A stretch of DNA of 64,000 nucleotides from Crossiella sp. SN42. Its GTDB lineage: Bacteria > Actinomycetota > Actinomycetes > Mycobacteriales > Pseudonocardiaceae. Made by a program: the position numbers and the translations under genes. Where the stretch lies: positions 1-64,000 of the forward strand of contig NZ_JAMHIV010000026.1 of the NCBI RefSeq assembly GCF_023897065.1. Direction: 5' to 3'. Shown here in pieces: positions 521 to 63,698 of the stretch. Below the pieces are notes generated by a model. The model was not told where the DNA came from. It saw nothing but the letters and a program-made list of their open reading frames with translations, and made no database searches. Within the stretch, counting starts at the first letter, position 1; every line of letters starts with the position of its first letter.

Positions 521-3021
521 CGCCCCTTCCCCTCCCCATCCCGAGGCAACCCCAGCACCCGCTCCCCCACCAACGTCAGCAAAATCTGCGTCGTCCCCCC
601 AGCAATGCTCAAACACCGGCTCAGCAAAAACCGGTGCACTTCCCCCGAGTCCCGCACCAAAGCCCGCTCCCCCAACAACTCGGCCGCCACCTCCGCGACG
701 TCCTGCCGATGCCGCACCCCCACCAGCTTCCGCACCCCGGACTCCGCCCCCACCTCGCCCCCAGCCACCGCCCGCTGCGTAGCCCGCAAATCCAGCAACG
801 ACAACGCGAGCCCATCCACCACCAGCCCGCCAACCCGCTCCGCCACCACCGGATCCGCCAACAACCCGGCCTCCCCCGCAGCGGCCAGCACCTCCTCCAC
901 CGGCTCCCCCAACGCCGACCCCCGGCTCATCGCCACCCGCTCATCGGCCAAGGTCCCGCGAGCCAACCGCCACCCATCCCCCGGCTCCCCAACGACATCG
1001 GCGTCCGCGACGAACACCTCATCCAGGAACACCTCGGCAAACCGAGCATCTCCGGTGATCTCACGTAACGGCCGCACGGATATACCGTCCGACTGCATAT
1101 TCACCAGGAAGTACGTCAACCCCCGATGCCGCGGCGCCTCAGGATCGGTCCGCGCCAAGCAGATCCCCCGATCCGCCCGATCCGCCAACGAGGTCCACAC
1201 CTTCTGCCCGGACAGCAGCCACCCACCCTCGGTCCGCACCGCCCGCGTCCGCAACGAGGCAAGATCCGACCCAGCCCCCGGCTCGCTGAACAGCTGGCAC
1301 CACACCACCTCGCCGCGCAACGTCGCCCCCACAAACCGCCGCCGCTGCTCCTCGGTCCCGTGCCGCAACAAGGTCGGCGCCGCCCACCCCCCGATCACCA
1401 GATCCGCCCGGACCACCCCGGCCCGAGCCAACTCCTCCTCCACCACCAACTGCCCCAACGCCCCCAGCCCCAGCCCATACGGCCGAGGCCAATGCGGCGC
1501 GAACAACCCCGCCGCCACCAACGCCGCCCGCCGCTCCCCCTCACTCAGCCCGGCGATCCGCTCAACCTCCCGCCGCACCCCCTCCCGAAACCCCACTGTC
1601 CCAGCGCCGACCCAACCACCACCGCCAACAACCCCCGGCTCACCGACCCCCGCGATCAAGCCGACTTCACCGTCGCCCGCAGCCAACCCGGCGCCGCCGC
1701 TACCAGCACCCACCCCGGTACCGCCGTCGTCCGCGGCCACCGCAGATCCGCCGCTACCGGCAACCGCCCCAACACCGTCACCACCCGCTGCCGCCCCTGC
1801 CCCGTTCCCAGCAGCCCCCGCCTGGCCGTCACCGCCAGCCCGGTCATCCCCGCCCCCCAACCCCTTCCGCCCGTTCGCACCGACCGCCCTAAGCCCCGCC
1901 GAGCCGCCGTCCCCGCCCGGCTCCGGTTGCCACCCCTCGCCCTCCCCCAACTCCACCCGCAACCGCCGCCGGGTCCCCCGCCCTGCCAGCACCGCGGCCC
2001 GCTCCCGCCACCGCACCCCACTGAGCAACTGCCGCAAGGCAAACGCCCGTCGCAGGTACAGATGCGCGTCGTGCTCCCAGGTGAACCCGATCCCGCCGAG
2101 CACCTGCACGCAGTCCTTCGCGTTGGCCACCGCCGCGTCCAGCGCGACCGCCGCCGCGGCCGCCGCCGACAACGACATCGCGGGCGAGGCTTCTTCCACC
2201 GCCCGCGCCGCGTCCCAGGCCACCGCCGCCGCCCGTTCGGACCGGCACAGCATCTCCGCGCACAGGTGCTTCACCGCCTGGAACGACCCGATCGGCCGCC
2301 CGAACTGCACGCGTTCGCGGGCATATCGCGTCGCGATATATACGCATTGCCGAGCTATCCCGGCCGCCTCCGCCGAGGCCAGCACCGCGGCCCGGTCCAG
2401 CACCGCCTCCGTGGTCAGGTCCGGCAGCACCCGGTCGGCGGGGATCACGGCCACCACCTCGACCTCGGCCAGGTCCCGCGAAAAGTCCGTGGCCGGCAAC
2501 GGGCGCACCCCGGCTTCTCCCGGCGTCAGCAGGATCCAGCCGGTCTCCCCGCCGACCGGCAACAGCAGCGCGGCGTCCTCGGCCGCTCCCAGCACCGGCC
2601 CGGTCACGCCGGTGACCAGCAGCCGTCCGGCGGAATCCCGTTGCGCGGTCAGCGTTCCCGGTGTCAGGGCGACCGCGGCGGACAGTCCACACGCGACGGC
2701 GGGCAGCAGTTCCCGGACACTCGGCTGGTCGACGAGCACCAGTCCGGCCAGCACGGTCGGCAGCACCGGCCCCGGAATCAGGGCCTCGGCGGCGGCCTCC
2801 AAGGCGACGGCCAGGTCCACCACCGTGCCGCCCCCGCCACCGAGCTCCTCGGGCACGGCGATGCCGAACAGTCCCAGGTCGACCAGTCCGGGCCACAGCC
2901 GGCGCCAGGCCGGGTCGCCGTTCTCCTGCGCGCGCACTGCCGCGACGGCGTGACCGTCCCGGCCGTAGGCGAGCACGGACTCGCGCAAGGCCTGCTGCTC
3001 CGCGGTGACCGCGATCGACAC
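517..3021 (-). CDS. fadE34: Fused two-domain acyl-CoA dehydrogenase, FadE34/ChsE3-like
   Basis: This 834-residue protein has two acyl-CoA dehydrogenase domains. Domain 1 (about 1-345) ends with QVLGGIGFTWEHDAHLYLRR. Domain 2 (about 478-830) carries FSEPGAGSDLAS and SGQKVWTSLADRADRG and ends with AGGTTQILLTLVGERVLGLPR. In Mycobacterium the fused FadE34, about 711 residues and acting on steroid side chains, is transcribed divergently from kstR, as here. The extra length is a Gly/Ala-rich linker at about 361-477 (DNA 1590-1941) with a loose 9-residue period (GDGVGAVAG, SGGAGLAAG, DGEVGLIAG). The start is a GTG at 3021, 25 bp from a consensus KstR operator. It is probably the first gene of an operon with the partial dehydrogenase. 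The steroid role is inferred from synteny and operator; the enzyme family is clear. Confidence 0.85.
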   Translation of the reverse strand: MSIAVTAEQQALRESVLAYGRDGHAVAAVRAQENGDPAWRRLWPGLVDLGLFGIAVPEELGGGGGTVVDLAVALEAAAEALIPGPVLPTVLAGLVLVDQPSVRELLPAVACGLSAAVALTPGTLTAQRDSAGRLLVTGVTGPVLGAAEDAALLLPVGGETGWILLTPGEAGVRPLPATDFSRDLAEVEVVAVIPADRVLPDLTTEAVLDRAAVLASAEAAGIARQCVYIATRYARERVQFGRPIGSFQAVKHLCAEMLCRSERAAAVAWDAARAVEEASPAMSLSAAAAAAVALDAAVANAKDCVQVLGGIGFTWEHDAHLYLRRAFALRQLLSGVRWRERAAVLAGRGTRRRLRVELGEGEGWQPEPGGDGGSAGLRAVGANGRKGLGGGDDRAGGDGQAGAAGNGAGAAAGGDGVGAVAGSGGSAVAADDGGTGVGAGSGGAGLAAGDGEVGLIAGVGEPGVVGGGGWVGAGTVGFREGVRREVERIAGLSEGERRAALVAAGLFAPHWPRPYGLGLGALGQLVVEEELARAGVVRADLVIGGWAAPTLLRHGTEEQRRRFVGATLRGEVVWCQLFSEPGAGSDLASLRTRAVRTEGGWLLSGQKVWTSLADRADRGICLARTDPEAPRHRGLTYFLVNMQSDGISVRPLREITGDARFAEVFLDEVFVADADVVGEPGDGWRLARGTLADERVAMSRGSALGEPVEEVLAAAGEAGLLADPVVAERVGGLVVDGLALSLLDLRATQRAVAGGEVGAESGVRKLVGVRHRQDVAEVAAELLGERALVRDSGEVHRFLLSRCLSIAGGTTQILLTLVGERVLGLPRDGEGKGR
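1079..1102. repeat. AT-rich dyad, copy 1
   Basis: TATACCG (1081-1087) then ACTGCATATTC, inside the fadE34-like gene, forcing AAT and ATA codons. It matches TATAYCG-N4-ACTG-N-ATAT at every fixed position. Confidence 0.6.
2321..2343. repeat. AT-rich dyad, copy 2
   Basis: GCATATCGCGTCGCGATATA includes the perfect palindrome ATATCGCG-T-CGCGATAT, inside the fadE34-like gene. Confidence 0.6.
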
Positions 3022-3046
3022 GACACCTCCAGCCAGACCGAAGATG

Positions 3047-3060
3047 TAGAACGTGTTTCA
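3047..3060. promoter_or_regulatory. KstR operator (full consensus)
   Basis: TAGAACGTGTTTCA fits the established KstR site TNNAACNNGTTNNA at every fixed position. It lies 25 bp upstream of the FadE34-like start, so KstR bound here would block transcription of both dehydrogenase genes until a steroid-CoA inducer is present. Confidence 0.85.
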
Positions 3061-3180
3061 CTTTGCCGCACGGCGGCGCGAGACACCACCCTCCACTCGG
3101 ACGCACCAACAACCAGACCCGAACGGGCCAGCGCACACTGGGAGTTCACCGAGATAACGGGTAGGCTCAACCCACAGAAC

Positions 3181-3194
3181 TGGAACAAGTTTCG
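3181..3194. promoter_or_regulatory. KstR operator (one mismatch), kstR autoregulation
   Basis: TGGAACAAGTTTCG matches TNNAACNNGTTNNA except at the last position (G for A). It lies 27 bp upstream of the kstR start codon, where an autoregulatory site would be expected. Confidence 0.65.
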
Positions 3195-3221
3195 CCTTTG
3201 TCGTGATGTTAGCCTAAGTCC

Positions 3222-3848
3222 ATGACGACTACGCCCAAGGCGCGCGCGGGCGGGGCCGAGGCACTGACCGGTCTCGCCGAGGAGGAGCTGGGCTCGGCGG
3301 CCCAGCGCGACCGGCGCAGGCGGATCATCGACGCGACCATCGCGCTCGCCTCCAAGGGCGGCTACGACGCGGTGCAGATGCGCGCGGTGGCCGACCGCGC
3401 CGACGTAGCGCTGGGCACCCTCTACCGCTACTTCCCGTCCAAGGTGCACCTGCTGGTCACCGCGCTGGCCAGGGAACTAGAACGGGCCAACCAGAAGATC
3501 GAGCGCGCCGCCATCCCCGGCGACACCGCCTACGACCGCGTGCTGTTCGTGCTGCGCCGCACCACCCGCAGCCTGCAACGAGACCCGCTGTTCACCGAGG
3601 CGATGACCCGGGCGTTCATGTTCGCCGACGCCAGCGCCGCCGCCGAGGTCGACTCGGTGGGCCTGTTGATGGAACGCATGTTCATCACCGCGATGGGCGG
3701 CGAACCGGACACCGAACGCAAGGCGATCGCCCGCGTCATCGGCGACGTCTGGCTGTCGAACCTGGTCGCCTGGGTGACCCGGCGGGCATCAGCCACCGAC
3801 GTGGCAACCCGCCTGGAGCTCACGGTCCGCCTACTCCTCAAGGACTAG
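3222..3848 (+). CDS. kstR: TetR-family repressor KstR
   Basis: KstR represses steroid catabolism genes and is released by steroid-CoA intermediates. This 208-residue protein has a long stretch of close similarity to mycobacterial KstR: the HTH region ATIALASKGGYDAVQMRAV followed by ADRADVALGTLYRYFPSKVH, and the ligand domain with LTEAMTRAFMFADASAAAEVD and WLSNLVAWVTRRASATDV. The tetR helix-turn-helix spans about residues 35-80. It is transcribed away from the fadE34-like gene, the arrangement seen around kstR in Mycobacterium, and both promoters carry KstR-type sites. The ATG at 3222 is preceded by only a weak ribosome-binding site. Confidence 0.92.
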   Translation: MTTTPKARAGGAEALTGLAEEELGSAAQRDRRRRIIDATIALASKGGYDAVQMRAVADRADVALGTLYRYFPSKVHLLVTALARELERANQKIERAAIPGDTAYDRVLFVLRRTTRSLQRDPLFTEAMTRAFMFADASAAAEVDSVGLLMERMFITAMGGEPDTERKAIARVIGDVWLSNLVAWVTRRASATDVATRLELTVRLLLKD

Positions 3849-3879
3849 CCACCGCAGCGAGGCCGGCCCCGACGAAAGC

Positions 3880-3909
3880 GGGGGCAGGAAGCGAGAACTC
3901 CCTGCCCCC
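3880..3909. terminator. Bidirectional hairpin between kstR and the DHFR-fold gene
   Basis: A perfect 9-bp inverted repeat, GGGGGCAGG (3880-3888) and CCTGCCCCC (3901-3909) with a 12-nt loop, sits between the two convergent genes. It has no U-tract, which is common in high-GC actinomycetes. Confidence 0.7.
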
Positions 3910-3915
3910 GACTAC

Positions 3916-4497
3916 TCACCCACGCCGCTGATAGCTGAGGAAGAGCACTCCGCTGTCGAACCGCTTCAGATCGGCCAGCTCAAACCGGTCCGGGCTGAAC
4001 CCGCCGTTGAACATCGGGATCCCCTTGCCCATCACGGTCGGGTGCTGCTTCACGAACACCTCGTCGATCTCCGGCAGCAGCTCCGCGGCGAGCGCGCCCC
4101 CGCCGACCAGGTAGATCCCCAGCCCCTCCTGCCGCTTGAGCTCCTTCACCTTGGCCAGCGCGTCCCCGCGAACCAGCTCCACCGTCGGCGCGGCCTCGGT
4201 CAGCGTGGCGGAGAACACGTAGTGCTTGAGATGCAGATAGGCATCCGGAATCCCTTGCGCCACACCACTTTCGTAGGACTTGCGCCCCTCCAGCACGGTG
4301 TCGAACCGGGTCAGCTCACCCGCGATCCCCAGCGCGTCCCGCGCCATGTACGGCAAGGTGTCCCCGTAGTTCTGGAACAGGTACTCCATGTGGTCACCCT
4401 CCATCAGGAAGTGACCAGTGGCCGTCGGGTCACCCCCGCCAACCTCGGCGATGAAGCCATCCAGGGTCGCCGCCACAAAGTAAGTCAACTTGCGCAT
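3916..4497 (-). CDS. Dihydrofolate reductase-fold protein (RibD C-terminal type)
   Basis: This 193-residue protein opens with MRKLTYFVAATLDGFIA, the first strand of the DHFR/RibD C-terminal fold, and contains TVLEGRKSYESG, YVFSATL and GIYLVGGGALAAELLPEIDEVF, the pattern of YyaP/YwjB-like reductases that use NAD(P)H. The physiological substrate of this family is mostly unknown. No signal peptide or membrane segment is seen, so it should be cytoplasmic. It converges on kstR and is preceded by an inverted repeat at 4540-4579 that may be its operator. There is no adjacent thymidylate or riboflavin gene to suggest a pathway. Confidence 0.85.
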   Translation of the reverse strand: MRKLTYFVAATLDGFIAEVGGGDPTATGHFLMEGDHMEYLFQNYGDTLPYMARDALGIAGELTRFDTVLEGRKSYESGVAQGIPDAYLHLKHYVFSATLTEAAPTVELVRGDALAKVKELKRQEGLGIYLVGGGALAAELLPEIDEVFVKQHPTVMGKGIPMFNGGFSPDRFELADLKRFDSGVLFLSYQRRG

Positions 4498-4539
4498 CTA
4501 TTGTCTCCCCAGTCCATCCATGGGAGCGACCCTCACCCC

Positions 4540-4579
4540 CAACCACTGCAACCATAGTACTCCACCCATAGTGGTTGCA
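4540..4579. promoter_or_regulatory. Inverted-repeat operator candidate upstream of the DHFR-fold gene
   Basis: Two nested inverted repeats occur in this AT-richer patch: CAACCACT (4540-4547) with AGTGGTTG (4570-4577), and TGCAACCA (4547-4554) with TGGTTGCA (4572-4579). They lie about 45-80 bp upstream of the reductase start. The spacing fits a dimeric repressor; no regulator gene sits next to it. Confidence 0.5.
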
Positions 4580-6577: not shown

Positions 6578-6596
6578 GATCATCCCCCTGAGGTTG

Positions 6597-8020: not shown

Positions 8021-9412
8021 ATGGGGTCGTCTCGGCGGGAGTTCCTGAAGGTGTCCGGGCTGGCCGCTGGGGGGCTGTTGCTGCCCGGGGCCGCGCTGGC
8101 GGACGGCGCGGCTGATCCGTGGGACGCGGTGCCGGGGATTCTGGCCCGGGTCGTGCCGCCGTCGTTTCCCGCTCGGGACTTTCCCGTCACCAGCTACGGC
8201 GGCAAGGGGGACGGCAAGGCGGACAACACCGCCGCGTTCCGGGACGCCATCGCCGCTTGTGCGCGGGCTGGGGGTGGGCGGGTGGTGGTGCCGGCGGGGA
8301 TCTTCCTGAGCGGGGCCATCCATCTGACCAGTAACGTCAATCTGCATATACAGTCCGGCGGTATAATCAGCTTCGCTACCGATCCGAGGAAGTTCCTGCC
8401 GGTGGTGCGGACCCGGTGGCAGGGGATCGAGTGCATGAACTACTCGCCCTTCATCTACGCCTACGAGGCCACCAATGTGGCGCTGACCGGGGCTGGGCGC
8501 ATCGACGGGCAGGCGGGCAATGGGCCGTGGTTCGACTTCGATCCGAAGCGGCAGCCGGACTGGGAGAAGTTGCAGAAGCTGGCGGTGGAGGGCGTGCCGG
8601 TGGAGCGGCGGGTGTTCGGGGGCGGGCACTTCCTGAAGCCGAACATGATCCAGTTCTACCGGTGCCGGAATGTGCTGGTGGAGGGGCTCGACATCCGGAA
8701 TCCGGCGATGTGGACCATCCATCCGGTGCTGTGCCGCAATGTCACGGTGCGCGGGGTCACCGTGTACAGCCGGGGCGGCATGGTGGACGGGGTGGATCCG
8801 GAGGCCAGTTCCGACGTGCATGTGACCGGGTGCACGTTCGACACCGGCGATGACGGGGTGGCGATCAAGTCGGGGCGGGACGTCGATGGGCGCCGGGTGG
8901 GGGTGCCCAGTGCGAACATCGTGGTGGAGCAGTGCGCGTTCCTGGGGCGGTGGGGGGCGATCGCGGTGGGCAGTGAGATGTCGGGCGGGGTGCGCAACGT
9001 GTTCGCGCAGGACATCACCATCCGGCCGGGGCCTGACTACAAGACCTTCCACGCGGTGTACATCAAGACCAACAAGCGGCTGGGTGGCACCGTGGACGGG
9101 GTGCACGTGCGCAGACTTGTCGCTGACAAGATTGACCGGGGCGCGGTGTTCATCACGATGAACTACAGCCTGACCGGGCCGGGGTTCGGGCCGATCGCCT
9201 ACCCGTCCGTGCGCAACGTCACGTTGGACCGGCTCACCGTGCGCGGCACGCCCTGGGCGGTGCGCCTGGACGGCCTCGCGGAAAGCCACATCCAGGACGT
9301 CCGGGTCAGCAACAGCACGTTCACCGAGGTCACCGACGCCGGTATCTCGATCAAGAACGCCGATCGGACCGTGTTCCACACTGTGCACGTGAATGGCAAA
9401 CCGGTCCTCTGA
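8021..9412 (+). CDS. Tat-exported glycoside hydrolase family 28 (polygalacturonase-type)
   Basis: The 463-residue protein begins with a twin-arginine signal (SRREFLKVSGLAAGG), followed by a right-handed beta-helix pattern. GH28 landmarks are the pectate-lyase-like start FPVTSYGGKGDGKADNTAAF, the catalytic region DGVDPEASSD (about 256-265), GDDGVAIKSG (276-285), GSEMSGGVRNVF, and YIKTNK in place of the usual RIK. This suggests an exported enzyme that hydrolyses galacturonan or a related pectic side chain. The ATG at 8021 has GGGAGGGAG about 6 nt upstream. It stands alone between a repeat region and ssgB. One AT-rich dyad (8344-8368) falls inside and forces two rare ATA codons. Confidence 0.9.
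   Translation: MGSSRREFLKVSGLAAGGLLLPGAALADGAADPWDAVPGILARVVPPSFPARDFPVTSYGGKGDGKADNTAAFRDAIAACARAGGGRVVVPAGIFLSGAIHLTSNVNLHIQSGGIISFATDPRKFLPVVRTRWQGIECMNYSPFIYAYEATNVALTGAGRIDGQAGNGPWFDFDPKRQPDWEKLQKLAVEGVPVERRVFGGGHFLKPNMIQFYRCRNVLVEGLDIRNPAMWTIHPVLCRNVTVRGVTVYSRGGMVDGVDPEASSDVHVTGCTFDTGDDGVAIKSGRDVDGRRVGVPSANIVVEQCAFLGRWGAIAVGSEMSGGVRNVFAQDITIRPGPDYKTFHAVYIKTNKRLGGTVDGVHVRRLVADKIDRGAVFITMNYSLTGPGFGPIAYPSVRNVTLDRLTVRGTPWAVRLDGLAESHIQDVRVSNSTFTEVTDAGISIKNADRTVFHTVHVNGKPVL
8344..8368. repeat. AT-rich dyad, copy 3
   Basis: On the minus strand TATACCG-CCGG-ACTG-T-ATAT, inside the GH28 gene and using two ATA codons. Confidence 0.6.
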
Positions 9413-27330: not shown

Positions 27331-28527
27331 ATGCCCATTGCCCTGCTCGCCCTGGCGATCAGCGCGTTCGCCATCGGCACCACCGAGTTCGTGATCATGG
27401 GGCTGTTACCGGAGGTGGCCGCCGACTTCGGGGTGTCCATCCCGGCCGCCGGCCTGCTGATCTCCGGCTACGCGCTGGGCGTGGTGGTCGGCGGGCCGCT
27501 GCTCACCGCGCTGGGCGGGCGGCTGCCCCGCAAGACGATCCTGGTCAGCCTGATGGGGCTGTTCATCGCCGGGAACATGTTCTCCGCGCTGGCCGAGACC
27601 TACGGCCTGCTGATGACCGGCCGGGTGGTCGCCGCGCTCGCGCACGGCGCGTTCTTCGGCGTCGGCTCGGTGGTGGCCGCGGACCTGGTCGCGCCGGAGC
27701 GCAGGGCCAGCGCGCTCGCGATGATGTTCACCGGCCTGACCATGGCCAACGTGCTCGGTGTGCCGCTGGGCACCGCGCTGGGCCAGCAGCTGGGCTGGCG
27801 CTCGACGTTCTGGGCGGTGACCGCGCTGGGCGTGCTCGGCCTGGTCGGGGTCATCGCGCTGGTGCCGCGCACCAAGGCCGCGCCGGGCGGCGGGCTGCGC
27901 CAGGAGCTGGCGGTGTTCCGGATCCCGCAGGTGTGGCTGGCGCTGGCGATGACCGCGCTGGGCTTCGGCGGGGTGTTCGCCTCCTTCACCTACATCGCGC
28001 CGATGATGACCCAGGTCGCCGGTTTCGCCCCCGGCACGGTCACCTGGCTGCTGGTGCTCTTCGGGGTCGGCCTGTTCGTGGGCAACCTGCTCGGCGGCCG
28101 GGCCGCGGACCGCGCGCTGATGCCCAGCCTCTACCTGTTCCTGGCCGTGCTGGCCGCGGTGCTGTTCACCTTCACCTTCACCGCGCACTCCCAGCTCGGC
28201 TCGGTGCTCACCATCGCCCTGTTCGGCATCGCCGGGTTCGCCACGGTTGCGCCGCTGCAGATGCGGGTACTGACCAAAGCGGCGGGAGCGCCCGCGCTGG
28301 CCTCGGCGGCCAACGTGGCCGCGTTCAACCTGGGCAACGCGGGCGGCGCGTGGCTGGGCGGGCTGGCCATCGACCACGGCCTGGGCTACACCGCGCCGAA
28401 CTGGATCGGCGGCACGCTGACCGTGGCCGGGCTCGCGGTGGCGCTGTTCTCCGGCTGGCTGGACCGCGGGCGGCGGGCCACGATCAGCACCGAGGGAGCC
28501 ACTCCGGAAGCCGCGCTCGCGCGCTGA
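27331..28527 (+). CDS. MFS efflux transporter (DHA1, AraJ/YdhP-like)
   Basis: A 398-residue, 12-helix transporter. The start MPIALLALAISAFAIGTTEFVIMGLLP and the following FGVSIPAAGLLISGYALGVV with LTALGGRLPRKTIL are typical of the DHA1 drug/arabinose-efflux subgroup. The motif C-like GMTxANVLGVPLG appears as MANVLGVPLGTALGQQLGWR. The ATG at 27331 has GGAG 9 nt upstream and starts directly with helix 1. It is the first gene of a MarR-controlled operon with a short-chain dehydrogenase and an aldo/keto reductase, suggesting removal and reduction of a toxic carbonyl. Confidence 0.9.
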   Translation: MPIALLALAISAFAIGTTEFVIMGLLPEVAADFGVSIPAAGLLISGYALGVVVGGPLLTALGGRLPRKTILVSLMGLFIAGNMFSALAETYGLLMTGRVVAALAHGAFFGVGSVVAADLVAPERRASALAMMFTGLTMANVLGVPLGTALGQQLGWRSTFWAVTALGVLGLVGVIALVPRTKAAPGGGLRQELAVFRIPQVWLALAMTALGFGGVFASFTYIAPMMTQVAGFAPGTVTWLLVLFGVGLFVGNLLGGRAADRALMPSLYLFLAVLAAVLFTFTFTAHSQLGSVLTIALFGIAGFATVAPLQMRVLTKAAGAPALASAANVAAFNLGNAGGAWLGGLAIDHGLGYTAPNWIGGTLTVAGLAVALFSGWLDRGRRATISTEGATPEAALAR

Positions 28528-28541
28528 GTATGCGCGTCGAC

Positions 28542-28567
28542 TGCATATATCGCTCTACTGAATATCC
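28542..28567. repeat. AT-rich dyad, copy 4
   Basis: TATATCG-CTCT-ACTG-A-ATAT in the gap between MFS and SDR genes, preceded by a second half-site CGACTGCATAT. Confidence 0.6.
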
Positions 28568-28593: not shown

Positions 28594-29379
28594 ATGAAGA
28601 TCGACCTGACCGGCCGCACCGCCCTCGTCACCGGCTCCACCAGCGGGATCGGCTACGCCGTGGCCGCCGGGTTCGCGAAGGCGGGCGCCGAGGTGGTGCT
28701 CAACGGCCGCAGCGCGGACCGGGTCGCCGCGGCGGTGGACAGGCTGACGGCGGAGACCGGTTGGGACAAGGTCACCGGGGTGGCCGCGGACATCGCCACC
28801 GCGGCGGGGGCGGACTCGCTGTTCGCGCAGCTGCCTGAGGTGGACATCCTGATCAACAACACCGGCATCTTCGGGCCGCAGCCGGTCTTCGAGATCCCGG
28901 ACGCGGAGTGGCTGCGCTTCTTCGAGGTCAACGTGCTCTCCGGGGTGCGGCTGACCAGGCACTACGCGCCGCGGATGGCCGAGCGCGGCTGGGGCAGGGT
29001 GGTCTTCGTCAGCAGCGAGTCCTCGACCATGATCCCCAGCGAGATGGTGCACTACGGGATGACCAAGACCGCGCAGCTCTCGGTCGCCCGCGGCATGGCC
29101 CAGGAGGTGGCGGGCAGCGGGGTCACCATCAACAGCGTGCTGCCCGGCTCCACCCTCACCGAGGGCGTGCGCGCCTTCATCGGCGAGCTGTACCCGGAGC
29201 TGCCCTTCGAGCAGGCCGAGCGCGAGTTCATGGCCAAGGACCGGCCGACCTCGCTGCTCAAGCGGCTGATCCGGCCGGAGGAGATCGCCAACCTGATCGT
29301 CTACACCGCCAGCGACGCCGCCTCGGCCACCACCGGCGCGGCGCTGCGGGTCGACGGCGGTCTCATCCCGACCATCTGA
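28594..29379 (+). CDS. Short-chain dehydrogenase/reductase (SDR)
   Basis: A 261-residue classical SDR with the cofactor motif TGSTSGIG (13-20), NNTG (88-91, replacing NNAG), catalytic Ser in VSSESS (about 140-144) and YGMTK (Y154, K158). The Asn-Gly-Arg after strand 2 (VVLNGRS) favours NADP(H). It probably reduces a carbonyl or oxidises an alcohol. It is 66 bp after the MFS gene and 29 bp before the AKR gene. The spacer contains an AT-rich dyad (28542-28567) that may be a regulatory or structural site rather than part of any coding sequence. Confidence 0.9.
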   Translation: MKIDLTGRTALVTGSTSGIGYAVAAGFAKAGAEVVLNGRSADRVAAAVDRLTAETGWDKVTGVAADIATAAGADSLFAQLPEVDILINNTGIFGPQPVFEIPDAEWLRFFEVNVLSGVRLTRHYAPRMAERGWGRVVFVSSESSTMIPSEMVHYGMTKTAQLSVARGMAQEVAGSGVTINSVLPGSTLTEGVRAFIGELYPELPFEQAEREFMAKDRPTSLLKRLIRPEEIANLIVYTASDAASATTGAALRVDGGLIPTI

Positions 29380-30289: not shown

Positions 30290-33200
30290 TCAGCGGCAGC
30301 TGGGGCGTTGCGGGACGTCGGGGAAGTACTGTTCCCACTCCTGCGGGCTCAGTTCCGCCTCGGGCAGCTCGCAGACGCGGGCGGCGGCCTGTTCCGGGTC
30401 GGCGTCCCAGAGCAGCACCACGCCGTCGTGGCCGCCGCTGACCATGGTCTTGCCGTCCGGGCTGAACTGGACGCTGTAGACCCGGTCCTTGTGCAGGGCC
30501 AGCACCGCGGCCTCGGTGAGGCGGCCCTGGCCGGAGACCTCCCACAGCCGCAGGGTCTGGTCGGCTCCGGTGCTGGCGAGCATGTTCCCGTCGCCGCGGA
30601 AGGCCACCGAGTAGGTGGTGTTGCCGTGCTCCTTCTTGGTTTCCACCAGCCGCGGGTGGTCGGGGTCGCGGATGTCCCACAGCCGCACCGAGTGGTCGGC
30701 GCTGGTGGAGGCGAGCAGGGTGCCCTCGGGGTTGATCGCCACCGAGTACAGCAGGTCGGTGTGGCCGCTGGCCGCGGCCAGCAACGTGGCCTGGCCGGAG
30801 TCGCGCACCCGCCACAGCCGGATCACCCGGTCCGCGCCTGCGGCGGCCAGCACCTTGGTCTTCTCGTTGTAGGCCACCGACATGATGGCGTTGGCCGGGC
30901 TGTGCAGCACCGCGCCGCGCCGCGGCTGGTCCGGGTCGCGGATGTCCCACAGCGCCACGGTGCTGTCCACGCTGCCGGTGATCAGGGTGGCGCCGCCGTC
31001 GGCGAAGGCCATCGAGAGCACCCCGTCCACGTGGCCTTTCAGCTCGCCGCGCGGGCGGATGTCGTCGAGGTCGCCGACCGACCACAGCCGGACCGTGCCG
31101 CCCAGGGTGGAGGTGGCCATCAGCTTGCCGTCGGCGCTGAACCGGACGTCGTAGACCACGTCGTCGTGGCCTTCCAGGATCTTGAGCAGCCGGGGGTGCT
31201 GCTGGTCGCGCACGTCCCACAGCCGCACGGTGTGGTCGGCGCTGCCGGTGACCAGCACCTTCTGGGTGGGGTGCAGCACGGCGGTGCGCACCGGGCCGGT
31301 GTGCGCGCTGAGCTCGGGCAGCTCGGCCGGGTGCTCCGGGTCGGCGAAGTCCCACAGCCGCACGCTCTGGTCCAGGCTGCCGGAGGCGAGGGTCTTGCCG
31401 TCGGGGTGGAAGACCACCGAGCGGATGATGTCGGTGTGCTTGCGCAGCACCGCGCCCGCCCTGGGTTTGCGGCGGTCCCGCAGGTGCCAGACCCGGATGT
31501 CGTTGTCCAGCGAGCCGGAGACCAGGGTGTCCTCGCCTGGCCGGAAGGACAGGTCGAACACGGTGTCGTGGTGCCCGGTCAGCGGGGGCAGCTCCACCGG
31601 TTCGCGTGGGTCGCGCATGTCCCAGACGCGGATGCTGCGGTCGGGCGCGCCGGTGGCGAACAGGGTGCCGTCGTGGTTGAAGGCCGCGCCGAAGGCGCTC
31701 TGCCGGTCCACCGGCAGGCTGCCCTGGGACTTGGGGTTGCCGGGGTCGCTGATGTCCCACAGCCGCACCGGCGGTTCGCCGGAGCCGACGATGGCGAAGG
31801 TGCGGCCGTCCGGGCTGAAGGCCATGCCGTGCACGGTCATGGTGTCCTGGAAGCGGGCCTTGCGGGTGGCCGCCCCGGGGTCGCGGACGTCCCAGAGCTC
31901 GACCACGCCGTCCACCGCGGCGACCGCGAGCAGGGCGCCGGTGCGGTCGAAGGCCAGTGAGGCGATCGAGGCCCCGGTCCACGGCAGACGGCCGATCTCC
32001 TTGCCCCGCCGGGGATCGGTCACGTCCCAGAACCGCACGGTGGCATCGCCCGCGCCGGAGGCGATCAGGCCGCCGCCGGGCCGGTAGGCGATGCTGGAGA
32101 CCGGGCCGGTGTGCCCGTGCAGGGTGCGCACCCGGTGCGGGTGCCTGCGGTCGCGCACGTCCCACAGGCTCATGGTGCTGTTCTGGTTGGCCACCACCAT
32201 GTTCCGGCCGTCCGGGCTGTACACCGCGGCGCCGACGGTGTTGCCCTGTTCGGTGAGCGGGCTGGCGTAGTGGGTGACGTAGGTGCTGAGCAGGCTGCCC
32301 CTGGTCTCCAGGATGGGGGCCAGCCGGTAGGCGGCCAGGCTGAGCCGGGCGGCCAGGCCGGGATTGGCGCCCCGCAAGGAGATCGCCCGGTCGGCGACCC
32401 GCTGGGCCACGGTGGTGGTGCGCTCCTCGTCGGCCATCCGCTGGGAGTCCACCGCGAAACCGGTGGCGGCCACGCTGAGCACCAGCATCGCGGTGAGCAG
32501 CGCGACGGCCTGGCGCAGCCGCCGGGTGCGCCGCCGGTCCACCTGGTCCTGCCTGGCCTGCTCGGCCAGGCTGGCGGCGAGGAAGCGCTGCTCCCCGGCG
32601 GAGAGGGTGTCCTGGTTGCGGGCGGCCCAGTCCCTGGCCACGGCCAGCCGGGAGCCGCGGTAGAGCGCGCCGGGGTCGCGGCCCTCGCTCTCCCAGCCCG
32701 CGGCGGCCTCGGTGAGCTGGCGGTGCACCCGCAGGCCCTCGCGGTCCTCGGTGAGCCAGCCGCGCAGCCGGGGCCAGGACCGGATCAGCGCCTCGTGGGT
32801 GATCTCCACGCTGTCGCCGTCGCGGGTGAGCAACCGGGCCGCGGTGAGCCGGTCGAGCACGAGCGCGGTGTCCGGGTTCCCCAGATCCGTGTCACCGCTG
32901 TCCAGCTCCGCTCGGTTGATGCGGCGCTTGGTGTCCTCGGTGCCCTCGCCGAGCGCGGTCAGGCGCAGCAGGATGCGCCGCAGCAACGCGCGCTGGGCCT
33001 CGGTCAGTCCACTGTGGACTTCCTCGGCGGTGCGCGCGACGGCGTGCTCGATACCGCCGACGGCGTCGTAGCCGGCGAGGGTCAGCGTGGTGCCGCGCCT
33101 GCGCCGCCAGGTCTCCAGCAGCGCGTGCGAGACCAGCGGCAGCACGCCCGGCCTGCCGGAGGCGTCCGCGACCAGGCGGGTGACCAGCGCGGTCTCCACC

Positions 33201-34126
33201 GAGCAGCCCGCGCGCACGGCGGGTTCGACGATGGCGGCGCGCAGCTCGTCGGTGCCGAGCTGGCCGACCACGACCTGCGCGTCCTGCAGGATGCCGGCCA
33301 GCTCGGGGCGTTGCAGGCAGTGGGTGTAGAAGTCCGAGCGGACGCCGATGACCACCCTGGCCCTGGTCAGCTCGTCGTCGGTGGCCGCGCGCAACGCGGC
33401 CAGGAACGCCGAGCGCTCGGCCGGGTCGGCGCACAGGGTGAACAGCTCCTCGAACTGGTCCACCACGAGCAGGAACTCCGCGCCCGCCGGCTCGCCGTCG
33501 AGCAGCTGGCGCAGTGCGAGCCCGAGGTTGCGCGGCTGTTCGCGCAGGTCGGCGGCGAGCCGGCCGGCCGGGGTGCGCAGGCGGGCGGCCAGTGCCACCG
33601 CGCACTCCTCCAGCGGGCGGGCGCCGGGGGTGACCACCAGTGCGGGACCGGCCTTGGGCAGCACCCCGGCGCGCAGCACGGAGGACTTGCCGGAGCCGGA
33701 GGCGCCGACCACCGCGACGAACCGCCGCCGGGCCAGCAGGCCGATGAGCTTGTCCACCAGGCCGGCCCGGCCGAAGAACCGGTCGGCGTCCTCGGCCTGG
33801 AAGGCGGCCAGCCCGGGGTAGGGCGGGCGTTCGCCGTCGGTCTCCCGCGGCTGGACCGGGTCGAGCTCGGCGGCCGCGTCCCGCCACCGCTTCTCCCACT
33901 CCGCTTCCTCGCCGCCGCAGGCCTTGGCGTAGGCGAGGGTGACCGCCAGGCTGGGCAGCCGGTCGCCGCGCGCGGCCTGGGCGAGGGTGGCCATGGAGAA
34001 GTGCGCCTGCCGGGCGAGCTCCCGGTAGCTCGGGTTGCCCGCCTGCTGCCGCAGCGCGCGCAGCTCACCGGCGAAGCGCTGGACCGGTCCCCCGTCCGGA
34101 TCCAGTGGACGTTCTGGACGTGGCAT
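30290..34126 (-). CDS. HTH-nSTAND NTPase with transmembrane helix and 14 WD40 repeats
   Basis: A 1278-residue protein. Residues 15-75 form an XRE-like HTH (SYRELARQAHFSMATLAQAA). The NTPase has Walker A GASGSGKSS (141-149) and Walker B FLLVVDQFEELF (218-229), the DQFEE form typical of nSTAND/novel STAND ATPases. A single membrane helix lies at about 538-558, followed from about 600 to the end by 14 WD40 units (each ending LWDxRDP or similar), enough for two seven-bladed propellers. The ATG at 34126 has GGGGGAAG upstream and directly starts the HTH; a longer frame to 34594 crosses the promoter. Such proteins may be signalling or defence sensors; the ligand is unknown. Confidence 0.88.
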   Translation of the reverse strand: MPRPERPLDPDGGPVQRFAGELRALRQQAGNPSYRELARQAHFSMATLAQAARGDRLPSLAVTLAYAKACGGEEAEWEKRWRDAAAELDPVQPRETDGERPPYPGLAAFQAEDADRFFGRAGLVDKLIGLLARRRFVAVVGASGSGKSSVLRAGVLPKAGPALVVTPGARPLEECAVALAARLRTPAGRLAADLREQPRNLGLALRQLLDGEPAGAEFLLVVDQFEELFTLCADPAERSAFLAALRAATDDELTRARVVIGVRSDFYTHCLQRPELAGILQDAQVVVGQLGTDELRAAIVEPAVRAGCSVETALVTRLVADASGRPGVLPLVSHALLETWRRRRGTTLTLAGYDAVGGIEHAVARTAEEVHSGLTEAQRALLRRILLRLTALGEGTEDTKRRINRAELDSGDTDLGNPDTALVLDRLTAARLLTRDGDSVEITHEALIRSWPRLRGWLTEDREGLRVHRQLTEAAAGWESEGRDPGALYRGSRLAVARDWAARNQDTLSAGEQRFLAASLAEQARQDQVDRRRTRRLRQAVALLTAMLVLSVAATGFAVDSQRMADEERTTTVAQRVADRAISLRGANPGLAARLSLAAYRLAPILETRGSLLSTYVTHYASPLTEQGNTVGAAVYSPDGRNMVVANQNSTMSLWDVRDRRHPHRVRTLHGHTGPVSSIAYRPGGGLIASGAGDATVRFWDVTDPRRGKEIGRLPWTGASIASLAFDRTGALLAVAAVDGVVELWDVRDPGAATRKARFQDTMTVHGMAFSPDGRTFAIVGSGEPPVRLWDISDPGNPKSQGSLPVDRQSAFGAAFNHDGTLFATGAPDRSIRVWDMRDPREPVELPPLTGHHDTVFDLSFRPGEDTLVSGSLDNDIRVWHLRDRRKPRAGAVLRKHTDIIRSVVFHPDGKTLASGSLDQSVRLWDFADPEHPAELPELSAHTGPVRTAVLHPTQKVLVTGSADHTVRLWDVRDQQHPRLLKILEGHDDVVYDVRFSADGKLMATSTLGGTVRLWSVGDLDDIRPRGELKGHVDGVLSMAFADGGATLITGSVDSTVALWDIRDPDQPRRGAVLHSPANAIMSVAYNEKTKVLAAAGADRVIRLWRVRDSGQATLLAAASGHTDLLYSVAINPEGTLLASTSADHSVRLWDIRDPDHPRLVETKKEHGNTTYSVAFRGDGNMLASTGADQTLRLWEVSGQGRLTEAAVLALHKDRVYSVQFSPDGKTMVSGGHDGVVLLWDADPEQAAARVCELPEAELSPQEWEQYFPDVPQRPSCR
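33007..33019. repeat. GTCCA-N3-TGGAC palindrome
   Basis: GTCCACTGTGGAC in the nSTAND-WD40 gene, read in another frame as V-H-S-G-L with an AGT codon. Confidence 0.7.
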
Positions 34127-45114: not shown

Positions 45115-47152
<2,038 letters not shown>

Positions 47153-55739: not shown

Positions 55740-55743
55740 GCGC

Positions 55744-59963: not shown

Positions 59964-60442
59964 CCCGCACACCGTCCGGCCCGCCACCCGGCCCGCCCGA
60001 TGCCCAGCCCGCACACCGCCCAAGCCGGCCGCCTCTGTCGGCTGCCTGGGCGCCCGCTGCCTGGGTCGCCCGTCGCCTGGGTCGCCCGTCGCCTGGGTCG
60101 CCCCCGTTCCAGCCCGCCTCCTGCCCGCACCACCCGCGCTCGCACCCCGGGCGCGTGCGGTGACTGTGCGAAACCGCGGTATGCTGCGGATGTGATCAGC
60201 GCAGCTCAGAGCGCTGCCCACAGCCCGCCGACACCGCCGCTTCACCCGTCCGAGTGCTTAGCCAAAACACGAAGGCAACCAAAACGCGGGTTCGAGCGTT
60301 CCGCAGAGGAACGGTGGCGGCGGCGGGGCAGAGCCGGACCAGCACCCAGCCGGCCCCGCCCCAGGAAACAAGCAGCCAAGCCCAACGGGCCAGCCCAGCG
60401 AGCCGGTCCGGTCCCGGGCGGCGGGAGCGGGGCGGGCTGGGG
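59964..60442. repeat. Non-coding region with four 16-bp tandem repeats
   Basis: Four near-identical 16-bp units at 60041-60104 (core CGCCTGGGTCGCCCG) lie between the VOC gene and the convergent GH16 gene. The rest is low-complexity and no gene is supported. Confidence 0.7.
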
Positions 60443-61375
60443 TCAGGTGGCCGGGACCGTGTCGATGAACTCGGTGCCGTTGGCCCGGTGGGTGTCGACC
60501 TGCTGGCGGACCTGGGCTGGGGTCAGGACCTGGTTGCGGGCGAAGTAGACCCAGTCGGCCTGTTGGTGGTACCTGCGTTCCGGGCCCGCGTCGTTGAGGT
60601 CGATGAACCAGTGGTTGAAGTTGATCAGCATGGGGGTCTCGGGGTAGTACTTGTCGCCGTGGTCGGCGATGAGCTGGCCGTCGATGTAGTACTTCATGCG
60701 ACCGTTGGCGACCTGCAGGACCAGGTCGTGCCAGCCGGCGAAGCTGCGGTGGGAGCGGGTTGAGGTGTTGTCGGCCCACCACGGGTCCGCCTGGTAGGTC
60801 TCCCACGAGGTCAGGAACATGGTGTTGGCCTGTTCGCCCCAGCCGCCGTTGGGCAGGTACTCGAAGTCCTGTTCGCCGTAGTCCGGGTCGCGGTCGTGGC
60901 GGAGCGGGGTGATCGTGTAGAAGGTCTGCACCACGTGGTCGCCGTCGGGGCCGTAGGCCGGTGCGTCGGTCATGTGGAAGCGGGTGGCGTAGGTGCCCTC
61001 GAAGAACTTGCGGCCGGTGTTGAGCTGCGACTGCCTTGTGCCGCTTGGGGTTCCGTTGGTCTGGGCGCTCAGTTGGGCGACCTGCTGACCATCGACGGTG
61101 GGGAAGCTGACCAGGTTCGGGTCCCAGGTCGCGCCGCCGACTCCTGGGCCGCCGGTGCCGGAGCGGACGGTCCAGCCGCGTTGGGGCAGGCGGGGGTCGG
61201 CGCTGCCGGTGTAGTTGAAGTCGTCGAAGAGGACCTGGGTTGGCTGGGTGGCGGTGGGGCCGTGTTGGAGCGCCGGCTGGGGTGGGGCGGCGGCGCTCGC
61301 GGGCAGGGTGGTCAGGCCGAGGGTGACCAGGGTGGACAGGCCGGCGGACAGCAGCCGGATTCGTTGCGGGGACAC
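60443..61375 (-). CDS. Secreted glycoside hydrolase family 16 (beta-1,3-glucanase-type)
   Basis: A 310-residue exported enzyme. A Sec signal (LSAGLSTLVTLGLTTLPASAAA) precedes a beta-sandwich domain with the GH16 catalytic cluster in GEQDFEYLPNGGWG (E168, D170, E172: E-x-D-x-E), preceded by TFYTITPLRHDRDPDY and followed by WHDLVLQVANGRMKYYIDG. Substrate by family: beta-1,3- or mixed-linked glucan. The GTG at 61375 has GAGGAGGAA 4 nt upstream. It is divergent from a GntR gene over 159 bp with the palindrome ACCAATTGGT between them, and lies close to a GH64 gene. Confidence 0.85.
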   Translation of the reverse strand: MSPQRIRLLSAGLSTLVTLGLTTLPASAAAPPQPALQHGPTATQPTQVLFDDFNYTGSADPRLPQRGWTVRSGTGGPGVGGATWDPNLVSFPTVDGQQVAQLSAQTNGTPSGTRQSQLNTGRKFFEGTYATRFHMTDAPAYGPDGDHVVQTFYTITPLRHDRDPDYGEQDFEYLPNGGWGEQANTMFLTSWETYQADPWWADNTSTRSHRSFAGWHDLVLQVANGRMKYYIDGQLIADHGDKYYPETPMLINFNHWFIDLNDAGPERRYHQQADWVYFARNQVLTPAQVRQQVDTHRANGTEFIDTVPAT

Positions 61376-61437
61376 GACTTCCTCCTCAACACCGCGGGGA
61401 TGTGCGGGGTGGCGGCGGTGTCGGGCATCCTGACTTG

Positions 61438-61447
61438 ACCAATTGGT
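61438..61447. promoter_or_regulatory. GntR operator candidate between GH16 and GntR genes
   Basis: ACCAATTGGT is a perfect 10-bp palindrome within CTTGACCAATTGGTAAG, 62 bp upstream of the GH16 start and 87 bp before the GntR start. GntR/HutC proteins recognise such short AT-centred palindromes. Confidence 0.6.
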
Positions 61448-61534
61448 AAGTTCAGTGACGTGAACGACCGTTGCACAGAAGCCCGGCGGCGTCAACCGGT
61501 GGCCGGGTCCGGTCGGCGTGGTCATACTGGGCCG

Positions 61535-62245
61535 GTGCCGAGACCGGTGGCGCGCAAGCGCGAACGCGTGCGCGACTACCTGCTGGAGCTGGTCGAGACC
61601 CGGCCGCAGGGCACCGCGATCCCCTCCGAGCGCACCCTCTGCACGCTGCTGTCGGTCTCCCGGCCCACGTTGCGCTCGGCGGTGGACGAACTGGTCAGCT
61701 CCGGGCTGCTGGTGCGCGAGCACGGGCGCGGCATGTTCGTGGCGCGGGGCAAGGTGACGCAGGAACTCCTCGGCGAGCAGGTGCCGCTGGCCGTGCCCAA
61801 GGCGGAGGGCGACTGGTCAAGTCGGGTGCTGGAACTGGTCAGGATTCCGGCTGGGGCCAGGATCGGGCGCAAGCTGGAACTGTCGCCCCGGGCCGAGATC
61901 ACCTACGTGGCCCGGTTGCGACTTGTGGACGGTATGCCGATCGCGTTGGAGCAGCTGCACATCCCGGTCGCGGTGGCCCCTGATCTGTCCACAGTGGACT
62001 TTGAGCGGCCTGGACTGCACGCCGCGTTGCGGAAACGCGGGGTGGTGGTGCACGAGGCGGTGCAGTCGATCGAGCCGACGGTGACCGATGAGACCGAGTC
62101 CGAGTTGCTCGGCGTGCCGCTGCTGACGCCGGCGCTGCTGTTCGACCGGCGCACCACGGACGCCGACGGCCGTGCGGTGGAGTACGCGCGCTCGATCTAC
62201 CGCGGCGACCGCTACCGGATCGTCTCCCGCCTGTCGCTGGCGTGA
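61535..62245 (+). CDS. GntR/HutC-family regulator
   Basis: A 236-residue regulator: N-terminal GntR winged helix (VRDYLLELVETRPQGTAIPS, then ERTLCTLLSVSRPTLRSAVDELVSSGLL) and a UTRA effector domain (about 90-230; ITYVARLRLVDGMPIALEQLHIPVA and ALLFDRRTTDADGRAVEYARSIYRGDRYRI). UTRA proteins bind sugars or sugar phosphates. The GTG at 61535 lies 6 nt after CATACT, a -10-like sequence, so the mRNA is probably leaderless. Its position between GH16 and GH64 suggests control of beta-glucan use. It contains a GTCCA-N3-TGGAC palindrome (61987). Confidence 0.88.
   Translation: MPRPVARKRERVRDYLLELVETRPQGTAIPSERTLCTLLSVSRPTLRSAVDELVSSGLLVREHGRGMFVARGKVTQELLGEQVPLAVPKAEGDWSSRVLELVRIPAGARIGRKLELSPRAEITYVARLRLVDGMPIALEQLHIPVAVAPDLSTVDFERPGLHAALRKRGVVVHEAVQSIEPTVTDETESELLGVPLLTPALLFDRRTTDADGRAVEYARSIYRGDRYRIVSRLSLA
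61987..61999. repeat. GTCCA-N3-TGGAC palindrome
   Basis: GTCCACAGTGGAC in the GntR gene; reads S-T-V-D with an ACA codon. Confidence 0.7.
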
Positions 62246-62250
62246 CCCGG

Positions 62251-62282
62251 CCGGCCACCGCAGCAGGGGTGGCGGTGGCCGG
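62251..62282. terminator. Bidirectional terminator between GntR and GH64 genes
   Basis: CCGGCCACCGC (62251-62261) pairs perfectly with GCGGTGGCCGG (62272-62282) over a 10-nt loop, in the gap between two converging stop codons. Confidence 0.85.
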
Positions 62283-62309
62283 ACGGGCGCACGTTGTGGT
62301 GTGACGGGA

Positions 62310-63500
62310 TCAGCGGAGGCGCTTGACGTCGACGGTGAGCGTGCCCGGGTCGCCGGAGCGGGTGGCGCCGCTGAAGTCCGGGCCCGGGGAGACGTCGTCG
62401 TAGGGGAAGGCGTAGCCGCGGTTGTCCGGCAGGCGCTCGTGCACGATCCGGGCGTAGTGGTTGGTGGCCGGGGTGCGGTAGAAGTTGCTCGCCACCTCGC
62501 CGTGCGGCTGGTTCGGGTTGGACAGCAACGTGGTGCGGTTCAGCGCCGCGGCCAGCCGCGGGATGATCGCCTTGCGCACCTCGCTGGCCCCGGCCAGGCT
62601 GAACGGACCGGAGTCGCAGCTGAACACGTCAGCGGTGCTGGGCTTGGTGAAGGTCTCGCCGTTGTTGAAGCGCAGCACCCCGCCGCTGACCCGGCCGGTG
62701 AGCCTGCCCGCACCGCTCTGGGTGTCCACCACCAGGTCGGTGCCCGCGTACTTGGCCCAGCACTGGTCGATGTAGCCGCCCAGGTAGTTGGCGAACGCGC
62801 TCGCCTTGTAGTGCGCGCTCATCGCCCGCAGGTTGCGGCCGTCCGGACCCTTCTGGATCAGCTGGTTCCAGGCCGAGCCCTCCTTGGACGCCTGGGCTTG
62901 CAGCGCCGCGCAGATCCCGTCCAGCGCGCCGGCCGGCAGGCCCGGCACGGTCTCCACCCGGCCGGAGAGCGAGCGCAGCGAGAGGCCCAGCGGCGCGGCC
63001 ACGAAGTCCACGTAGCTGATGTTGGCGAACAGCTCGGCCTCGTTGAAGGTGAACTCGGCGAAGGTCCAGTTCTTGTTGATGTTGGGGTCGCCCGGGTTGA
63101 GGAAGCTGGGGTGCACGATGTGCGGGCCTGGGTTGACGAAGAAGTTGAGCTTCGCCCCGGTCACCACGTAGATCCGCGCGCCGTACATGCGCGGGATGGA
63201 CACCGTGGTGGAGGAACCGGGACCGCCCAGGGCGATCGAGGGGTCCTCGCCCAGCGGGGTGACCGGCGAGCCGGGCGAGGGCGGGTAGTAGGAGCTGCCG
63301 TCCCGGCGGACGAACAGCGGGCGGTTGCCGGACAGGCCCACGACGTAGGCGTAGGCGGTGGCCGATCCGGAGTTGTTGACCAGGTTCAGGGTGAATCTCT
63401 GCGGCGTCGCGGCAGTGGTGGCGTGCGCGGCGAGCTGGCCGAGGGCAGGGGTGGCCAGAGCTGTCGCGGACGCGCCGAGGAAGAGGCGACGAGAGATCAT
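62310..63500 (-). CDS. Tat-exported GH64 beta-1,3-glucanase
   Basis: A 396-residue enzyme with a twin-arginine leader (SRRLFLGASATALATPALGQ) and the GH64 sequence pattern: LNLVNNSGSATAYAYVVGL, ARIYVVTGAKLNFFVNPGPHIVHPSF, WTFAEFTFNEAELFANISYVDFVA, GLSLRSLSG, and a C-terminal YARIVHERLPDNRGYAFPYDDVSPGPDFSG. GH64 enzymes release laminaripentaose from curdlan/laminarin. The conserved Glu/Asp pair probably lies in FNEAELF and ISYVDFV. ATG 63500 has GGAGGAAAG 4 nt upstream. A LacI-type operator is centred at 63595, so carbon-source control is likely in addition to GntR. Confidence 0.9.
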   Translation of the reverse strand: MISRRLFLGASATALATPALGQLAAHATTAATPQRFTLNLVNNSGSATAYAYVVGLSGNRPLFVRRDGSSYYPPSPGSPVTPLGEDPSIALGGPGSSTTVSIPRMYGARIYVVTGAKLNFFVNPGPHIVHPSFLNPGDPNINKNWTFAEFTFNEAELFANISYVDFVAAPLGLSLRSLSGRVETVPGLPAGALDGICAALQAQASKEGSAWNQLIQKGPDGRNLRAMSAHYKASAFANYLGGYIDQCWAKYAGTDLVVDTQSGAGRLTGRVSGGVLRFNNGETFTKPSTADVFSCDSGPFSLAGASEVRKAIIPRLAAALNRTTLLSNPNQPHGEVASNFYRTPATNHYARIVHERLPDNRGYAFPYDDVSPGPDFSGATRSGDPGTLTVDVKRLR

Positions 63501-63577
63501 GAACTTTCCTCCACGTCGAGGAAGCTGATCCATGCCACTGGCGGCTGCGACCTGGAAACTCAGCTGGTAGGGATACA

Positions 63578-63611
63578 GGGGGTGTGCGTGAGAGCGCTCT
63601 CGCACACCCCC
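63578..63611. promoter_or_regulatory. LacI/CebR-type operator within a 34-bp palindrome
   Basis: GAGAGCGCTCTC (63590-63601) closely resembles the CebR-type box TGGGAGCGCTCCCA. It sits inside the larger inverted repeat GGGGGTGTGCG (63578-63588) and CGCACACCCCC (63601-63611), about 80 bp upstream of the GH64 start. Confidence 0.7.
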
Positions 63612-63675
63612 TACGGTGGCCCTGGATCCCGAGGAAAGTCAAGGTGTTCAGATGGGGAACATATTCTGGGCCGCG

Positions 63676-63698
63676 TTATATACCGTCACGCGGTATGC
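63676..63698. repeat. AT-rich dyad, copy 6 (short spacer)
   Basis: TATACCG-TCACG-CGGTATGC at the 3' end of the protease gene; includes the inverted repeat ATACCG/CGGTAT. Confidence 0.5.

Follow-up and report, generated by a model that had tools for sequence, protein, structure and literature searches.

Six AT-rich dyads were found in a 64,000-bp stretch of the genome of Crossiella sp. SN42 (the window; bases 1-64000 of the 165,380-bp contig C19, NZ_JAMHIV010000026.1, in a genome of 9.72 Mb referred to as G000), and they belong to a family of near-palindromic sites that is well supported, as read from the sequence, as the autoregulatory operator of a PadR subfamily. In four of five Crossiella genomes, copies of this operator-like motif, the majority of them within unrelated genes, span about 150-500 kb around the padR gene, and none were found elsewhere at the thresholds used. 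This suggests that the repressor marks or anchors a chromosome region instead of switching its own gene only.

In total, the window contains 16 ATAT tetramers and five non-overlapping loci with ATAT pairs 11-19 bp apart. The Markov expectation for such paired loci has a mean of 0.01-0.02 and a maximum of 1 (orders 1-4, 100 simulations each), and among the tetramers present in the window ATAT showed the top pair enrichment. The dyads are real, and chance is excluded as their source. An earlier note on this DNA had listed them as ATAT pairs starting at 1079, 2321, 8344, 28542, 45909 and 63676. The sequences do occur at these coordinates, but 8344 holds one ATAT only (the partner box is TATAA), and the second ATAT of the dyad at 63676 sits upstream, at 63661. 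The consensus proposed there, TATA[C/T]CG-N4-ACTG-N-ATAT, fits 1079 and 28542 and does not fit 8344 (TATACAG-TCCG-GCGG-T-ATAA). The suggested division into groups was not borne out: all six loci represent one motif, 2323 being its most divergent copy, with ATAT pairs 13 or 15 bp apart start-to-start. The unit of this motif is an ATAT-N13-ATAT near-palindrome with the majority consensus ATATACCGC-N3-GCGGTATAT (nine C19 loci, both orientations). Several loci carry additional boxes at a 17-bp period and thereby form arrays; the spacing of the additional boxes peaks at exactly 17 bp. Gene calls agree that four of the six dyads (1079, 2321, 8344 and 45909) are coding, and codon alignments likewise bear out that these force ATA, TAT, AAT and GTA codons.

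An iterated palindromic matrix run over the whole of C19 converged to 17 sites in 11 loci, six of them in the window (1080, 2323, 8346, 28545, 45911 and 63661/63678) and five outside it (96778, 111979, 123142, 128972 and 137205). Under leave-one-out training, the distal sites kept ranks 9th to 16th on C19. The highest scores were reached at 8346 (32.4), 137205 (30.8) and the padR operator (30.6), while the others ranged from 23 to 30.

The site at 123142 sits in front of padR (C19:122792-123133, minus strand, outside the window), which codes for a protein matching PF03551 above the cut-off (E 9.5e-19). For comparison, the 250 bp upstream of padR were scored in the best 80 of 240 PadR relatives with a C19 matrix built from 12 sites, the padR operator among them, at a threshold of 13; close relatives were included, so that these loci are not all independent. 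A match was present in 71 of the 80 loci compared to 3 of 1600 random windows from the same loci, and it was located 17-48 bp from the padR start in 70 of these 71 and 84 bp away in the remaining one. When the matrix was trained without the padR operator, 68 of 79 non-Crossiella padR loci still matched (4 of 1580 control windows), and training on the six window sites alone recovered 60 of 79 padR loci from other actinobacteria (8 of 1580 control windows). The identity of the motif as the operator of this PadR subfamily is well supported by these comparisons, and PadR presumably binds the predicted operators and represses from them.

The distribution of the motif was followed with R1, a 55-position sequence-only model that was trained on nine C19 loci including the padR operator, in both orientations, and whose E-values are rough. 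At E up to 10, R1 recovered 10 of the 11 C19 loci in its own genome (128972 was missed) as well as two loci on contig C11 (50614 and 201729), which synteny with the congener G001 places directly left of C19; none was found off these two contigs among the 150 of 215 first-look candidates that were scored. The plain pattern ATAT-N7-15-ATAT gave 35 forward matches genome-wide compared to 15 for a reversed control pattern, and C19 accounts for 13 of the 35, a number that includes overlapping registers and stands for nine loci. In the complete 10.06-Mb genome of G002, all nine R1 loci at E up to 0.05 lie within 165 kb (8403631-8568154). A matrix scan over 600 kb of this genome reached scores of 17 or more only inside 8403646-8568123, and ten 40-kb control stretches (400 kb) contained no site at a score of 13 or more. 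In the complete genome G237, of the same species as the source, the interval 6403298-6705530 holds ten R1 loci and 12 matrix loci, all but one of the latter within 6558095-6705530, and G001 has eight R1 loci on a single contig between 38.7 and 397.6 kb. G003 has one R1 locus, at padR, and the 260 kb around it are without another site of score 13 or more. The earlier note had expected a genome-wide excess of the motif and its conservation in orthologous genes if the dyads were sites of one dimeric protein dispersed in unrelated genes. The motif is indeed enriched, yet limited to one chromosomal region, and congener orthologues keep the sites far above background (see below). Both results support such a protein, with binding and a dimeric state predicted; what had not been noted is that the motif keeps to one region, that it probably derives from the padR operator and that its boxes form arrays at 17 bp.

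The large scans scored a part of the first-look candidates (14 per genome in those of the family and the class), so that weak or diverged sites elsewhere may have been missed. In the family, 12 of 390 genomes matched at E up to 0.02, and many loci occurred in only four genomes, all of them Crossiella (G000, G237, G001 and G002). In the class, 7 of 394 genomes matched, the six others having one locus each. R1 matched 18 of 30 other padR-bearing genomes at E up to 0.5, 15 of them at a single locus and three at two loci on different contigs, whereas 12 had no R1 match although all 12 have a matrix match at padR. As R1 is tuned to Crossiella, diverged dispersed sites in other genera could escape detection. 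In both G003 and G013 (Longimycelium tulufanense), a single R1 site lies just upstream of the PadR gene.

The distance from padR to dnaA is 2.63 Mb in G003 and 2.66 Mb in G002, whose chromosome was taken as circular, which is supported by the agreement between the two distances. With padR about half a replichore away from dnaA, the site region is neither origin nor terminus, and an origin or terminus domain was rejected on this ground. A plasmid, an island or a biosynthetic cluster is not favoured either, as the C19 genes look ordinary chromosomal (one is uvrB-like) and C19 is mostly syntenic with the congeners; the Pfam scan of C19 covered 28 of 146 called proteins, of which some were truncated at the ends of the stretches scanned. 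Also considered were SARP-type direct repeats, dif and canonical parS, which were set aside by eye, without a search.

That the sites are kept by selection is well supported by codon alignments with the congeners. All 28 A/T third-codon bases in boxes are conserved in G002, compared to 987 of 2243 (44%) elsewhere (p 1e-10); the corresponding numbers are 24 of 24 and 982 of 2195 (45%) for G001 and 27 of 28 and 1587 of 2388 for G237. For G003, there are few positions to compare, and 0 of 8 are conserved in boxes versus 366 of 1548 elsewhere (p 0.21). In addition, 11 of the 20 ATA codons of C19 touch arrays, though arrays touch only 87 of 48,230 codons.

Where a site-free coding orthologue aligns, the site differs by substitutions and not by insertion, judging from the alignments. 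This applies to the coding sites 1080, 8346, 128972 and 137205 and to 381002 of G001, which was found in G001 only and is separated from its relatives by substitutions. In the GH18 chitinase gene, for instance, G003 reads GAC GTC TAC CGG and C19 reads GAC ATA TAT CGC, and site-free orthologues were also found at 128972, 1080 and 8346. Single sites differ between the genomes as well: 201740 is full in G000 only, and G000 shares with G001 the site 50628, which is weaker in G237 and missing from G002. A small mobile repeat is not apparent at the alignable coding sites. The exceptions are intergenic, namely 8565311 (G001/G002), which is a 29-bp insertion relative to G000 and G237, and the array at 28545, which corresponds to a gap in the G003 alignment. 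Identity over aligned C19 DNA is 83% for G003 and 88% for G001 and G002. As G003 is the most divergent congener, it would be simpler to suppose that the other Crossiella lineage acquired the dispersed sites.

The sites are largely independent of promoters. Eight of the 11 C19 loci are coding, two are intergenic (28545 and the padR operator) and one (63661-63715) straddles a gene end; at a coding fraction of 0.873, three or more non-coding loci among 11 have a P of 0.15. Codon phases 0, 1 and 2 are all represented, and the coding sites lie 65 to about 1900 bp from the gene start without a shared position. The host genes code for an acyl-CoA dehydrogenase (two sites), a GH28 protein, an M28 peptidase, a xanthine-dehydrogenase-like protein, a DUF6228 protein, a solute-binding protein and the GH18 chitinase. 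Since the gene caller misplaces starts where sites lower the codon scores, the labelling of the congener counterparts of 45911, 1080 and 2323 as 'intergenic' is probably an artefact, and the C19 calls and codon alignments were used instead.

As to function, we tentatively favour, at slightly less than even confidence, that the dyads are operators and operator arrays of the one PadR-family winged-helix repressor encoded on C19 and that they are used regionally. Judging from the family, the palindrome would be bound by PadR winged-helix dimers; boxes with a period of 17 bp suggest that neighbouring dimers would sit side by side. The least certain step is that the PadR-loaded arrays might mark, compact or anchor the mid-replichore segment rather than switch each host gene. 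Anchoring could perhaps be to the membrane, by way of the product of the gene adjoining padR. Regional use is preferred because the sites ignore gene structure yet remain local. It is rather doubtful that a membrane-coupled PadR repressor was converted within one genus into a new chromosome-domain system. In such a conversion, the operator would have been copied largely by point mutation to give some two to three dozen boxes, mostly in coding DNA, and the repressor would tether or compact one mid-replichore segment together with its membrane partner.

Several observations weigh against regional use. The region has no sharp edge, because four weaker G002 matches (8263998, 8388451, 8395855 and 8576871; scores 13.3-16.2) lie outside the core and G001 has an outlying three-box array at 546.9 kb, in a frame that by eye resembles an ABC-transporter ATPase. 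Unlike the regions of RacA, RefZ and MatP, it is not at the origin or terminus, and nine of the 80 padR loci score under 13. The gene after padR codes for a protein of 315 residues that has about nine hydrophobic segments but no domain above cut-off: Pfam gave only a sub-cut-off match to DUF5336, NCBIfam gave none, and no HAAS domain was found by profile. A tblastn match to this protein was obtained in only 12 of 81 padR loci, each just downstream of padR and mostly to the N-terminal part. Furthermore, several of the host proteins, namely GH28, M28, the alpha-lytic-type protease and GH18, look extracellular, as might be the case in a regulon, and two arrays other than that of padR (28545 and 63661) are upstream of genes.

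The latter two points lead to the main rival, an ordinary regulon, in which PadR inside or just before genes would block transcription (roadblock or intragenic operators) and could coordinate extracellular enzymes and metabolism encoded near padR. We regard this as possible but unlikely. A solute-binding protein is also among the hosts, and the G001/G002 insertion at 8565311 adds a third example to the two arrays upstream of genes. By a crude screen, secreted proteins were in excess among the hosts (p 0.01), but this enrichment was dropped and the result not used, since the predictor mislabelled several proteins: it called the xanthine dehydrogenase and DUF6228 proteins secreted and missed the GH28 and solute-binding proteins. 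On the other hand, most sites are coding with the scattered positions given above, several hosts are unrelated to each other (acyl-CoA dehydrogenase, xanthine-dehydrogenase-like, DUF6228), and the other padR genomes searched with the profile have one or two loci at most. A titration sink, in which surplus sites would buffer free PadR and sharpen an autoregulated switch, would fit two dispersed sites (8346 and 137205) that score as high as the padR operator and a set that persists while single sites turn over; however, it needs no regional confinement, and the confinement is extreme, so that we consider it improbable. Slightly less probable still is that the dispersed sites serve another DNA-binding protein, whose specificity just happens to be that of PadR. 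A PadR paralogue with 41-44% identity is indeed encoded in three of the four array-bearing genomes (G002:C1:7979182, G001:C2:109410 and G237:C1:6145349); at E up to 1e-6 it went undetected in G003, but likewise in G000, although G000 has arrays. Moreover, no R1 match lies near the paralogue in G002, and the dispersed sites alone predict padR operators in other genera. That the sites have no function and stem from chance, from some mutational process or from a small mobile repeat is very improbable. The 29-bp insertion at 8565311 and the gap at 28545 in G003 would be in line with a mobile repeat; the Markov simulation excludes chance, the alignable coding sites show no insertion relative to site-free orthologues, and the conservation of box bases far above background already contradicts this explanation.

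To our knowledge, region-marking systems of chromosomes have mostly been described in a few models, and little is understood of their origin. MatP/matS resembles the Crossiella sites in that the matS sites are confined to one chromosomal region; that region is the terminus, and the fold of MatP differs from that of PadR. RacA is, as far as we know, not a PadR protein either. With region markers such as RacA/ram and MatP/matS, the Crossiella sites share regional confinement but not a location at origin or terminus. In Bacillus subtilis, the 250 kb to the left of oriC hold most of the ram sites, and it is DivIVA that brings RacA to the pole (PMC4949633). The likeness is that one DNA-binding protein has multiple sites clustered in one region (about 250 kb for ram; PMC4949633), whereas the Crossiella region is mid-replichore and not beside oriC, its protein is a PadR and no anchor is known. 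RefZ of Bacillus, a TetR-family protein, has five RBMs on the two arms and near oriC at genus-conserved positions (PMC6657595). It thus resembles the Crossiella case as a transcription-factor-family protein with near-palindromic sites at positions conserved across a genus (PMC6657595), but differs from it in family and in having five sites compared to 11 or more loci in one region. The palindromic NBS and SBS sites of Noc and SlmA are spread over the chromosome and underrepresented in ter, Noc associates with the membrane, and here, too, the chromosomal distribution of palindromic sites carries positional information (PMC4726725). Noc, SlmA and RefZ are not PadR proteins.

Among PadR systems, HAAS-PadR pairs have been proposed as a membrane-linked signalling system (PMC11237479), and LftR, LltR and LstR of Listeria are reported to be autoregulatory (PMC11237479, PMC6624303). 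As in HAAS-PadR systems, the Crossiella padR adjoins a membrane-protein gene and has an operator-like site just upstream (PMC11237479, PMC6624303). Unlike in these and other autoregulatory PadR systems, the sites are also dispersed in coding DNA over 150-500 kb, and the partner is without HAAS by profile. No dispersed PadR sites were found among the top-ranked papers of the literature searches, which had little coverage of subscription journals. The likely ancestral state, a single padR operator as in G003, Longimycelium and other genera, can be compared directly with the derived regional state in four Crossiella genomes, and individual sites can be seen to differ. Should the function be regional, a repressor would have turned chromosome organiser through operator spread; if the sites form a regulon, it would be an unusual one with conserved intragenic operators.

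Within the window, the first two sites lie in the acyl-CoA dehydrogenase gene (517-3021, minus strand). Site 1080..1100 is an ATAT-N13-ATAT unit with a weaker outer match at 1063 and is kept in G237, G001 and G002, while it is missing from the aligned G003 sequence. Site 2323..2341 (ATATCGCGTCGCGATATAT) is kept in G237 and, with an altered spacer, in G001 and G002. The 834-residue product of this gene matches the N- and C-terminal domains of the family twice each, and its coding score is low for its length. Site 8346..8366 (ATATACAGTCCGGCGGTATAA) lies in the GH28 gene (8021-9412, plus strand); its core is identical in G001 and G002, and it is missing from the ungapped G003 orthologue. The intergenic array 28528..28565 comprises three boxes at 17-bp spacing (GTAT, ATAT, ATAT) between an MFS gene that ends at 28527 and an SDR gene that starts at 28594. 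Four boxes at the same spacing form array 45911..45965 (ATAT, ATAT, CTAT, ATAT) in the M28 peptidase gene (45115-46077, minus strand), and in G001 and G002 boxes one to three are kept (the third as GTAT) and the fourth is not. Array 63661..63715 (ATAT, ATAT, ATGC, ATAC, again at 17 bp) spans the 3' end of an alpha-lytic-protease-prodomain gene (stop at 63686, minus strand) and is about 160 bp upstream of a GH64 glucanase gene (62310-63500, minus strand).

Some further features were met. Outside the window, C19:134490-136241 (plus strand) codes for a 583-residue protein with Sigma-70 regions 2 and 4 (the latter just under cut-off), zf-HC2 and DUF11; the palindromic PadR-type site 8565311 of G001 and G002 lies upstream of the orthologue of this sigma-factor-like gene. 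A profile match in G018, from another genus of the family (L045, around 1512), turned out to be another kind of palindrome, GGGTGCATATGCC-N7-GGCATATGCACCC; none of the long reading frames listed there codes for a PadR, and the match was rejected. An identical palindrome, ATATGGGCCAAAGGCCCATAT, which is unlike the PadR motif, occurs at G002:C1:3720533, G002:C1:9297265 and G001:C39:739526, and G000:C29:88089-88130 contains ATATGCCCATCTGGAGTTGATAT twice as a short tandem repeat with starts 19 bp apart. The window also codes, at 30290-34126 (minus strand), for a 1278-residue nSTAND1 NTPase with WD40 repeats, which possibly has a role in defence or signalling.

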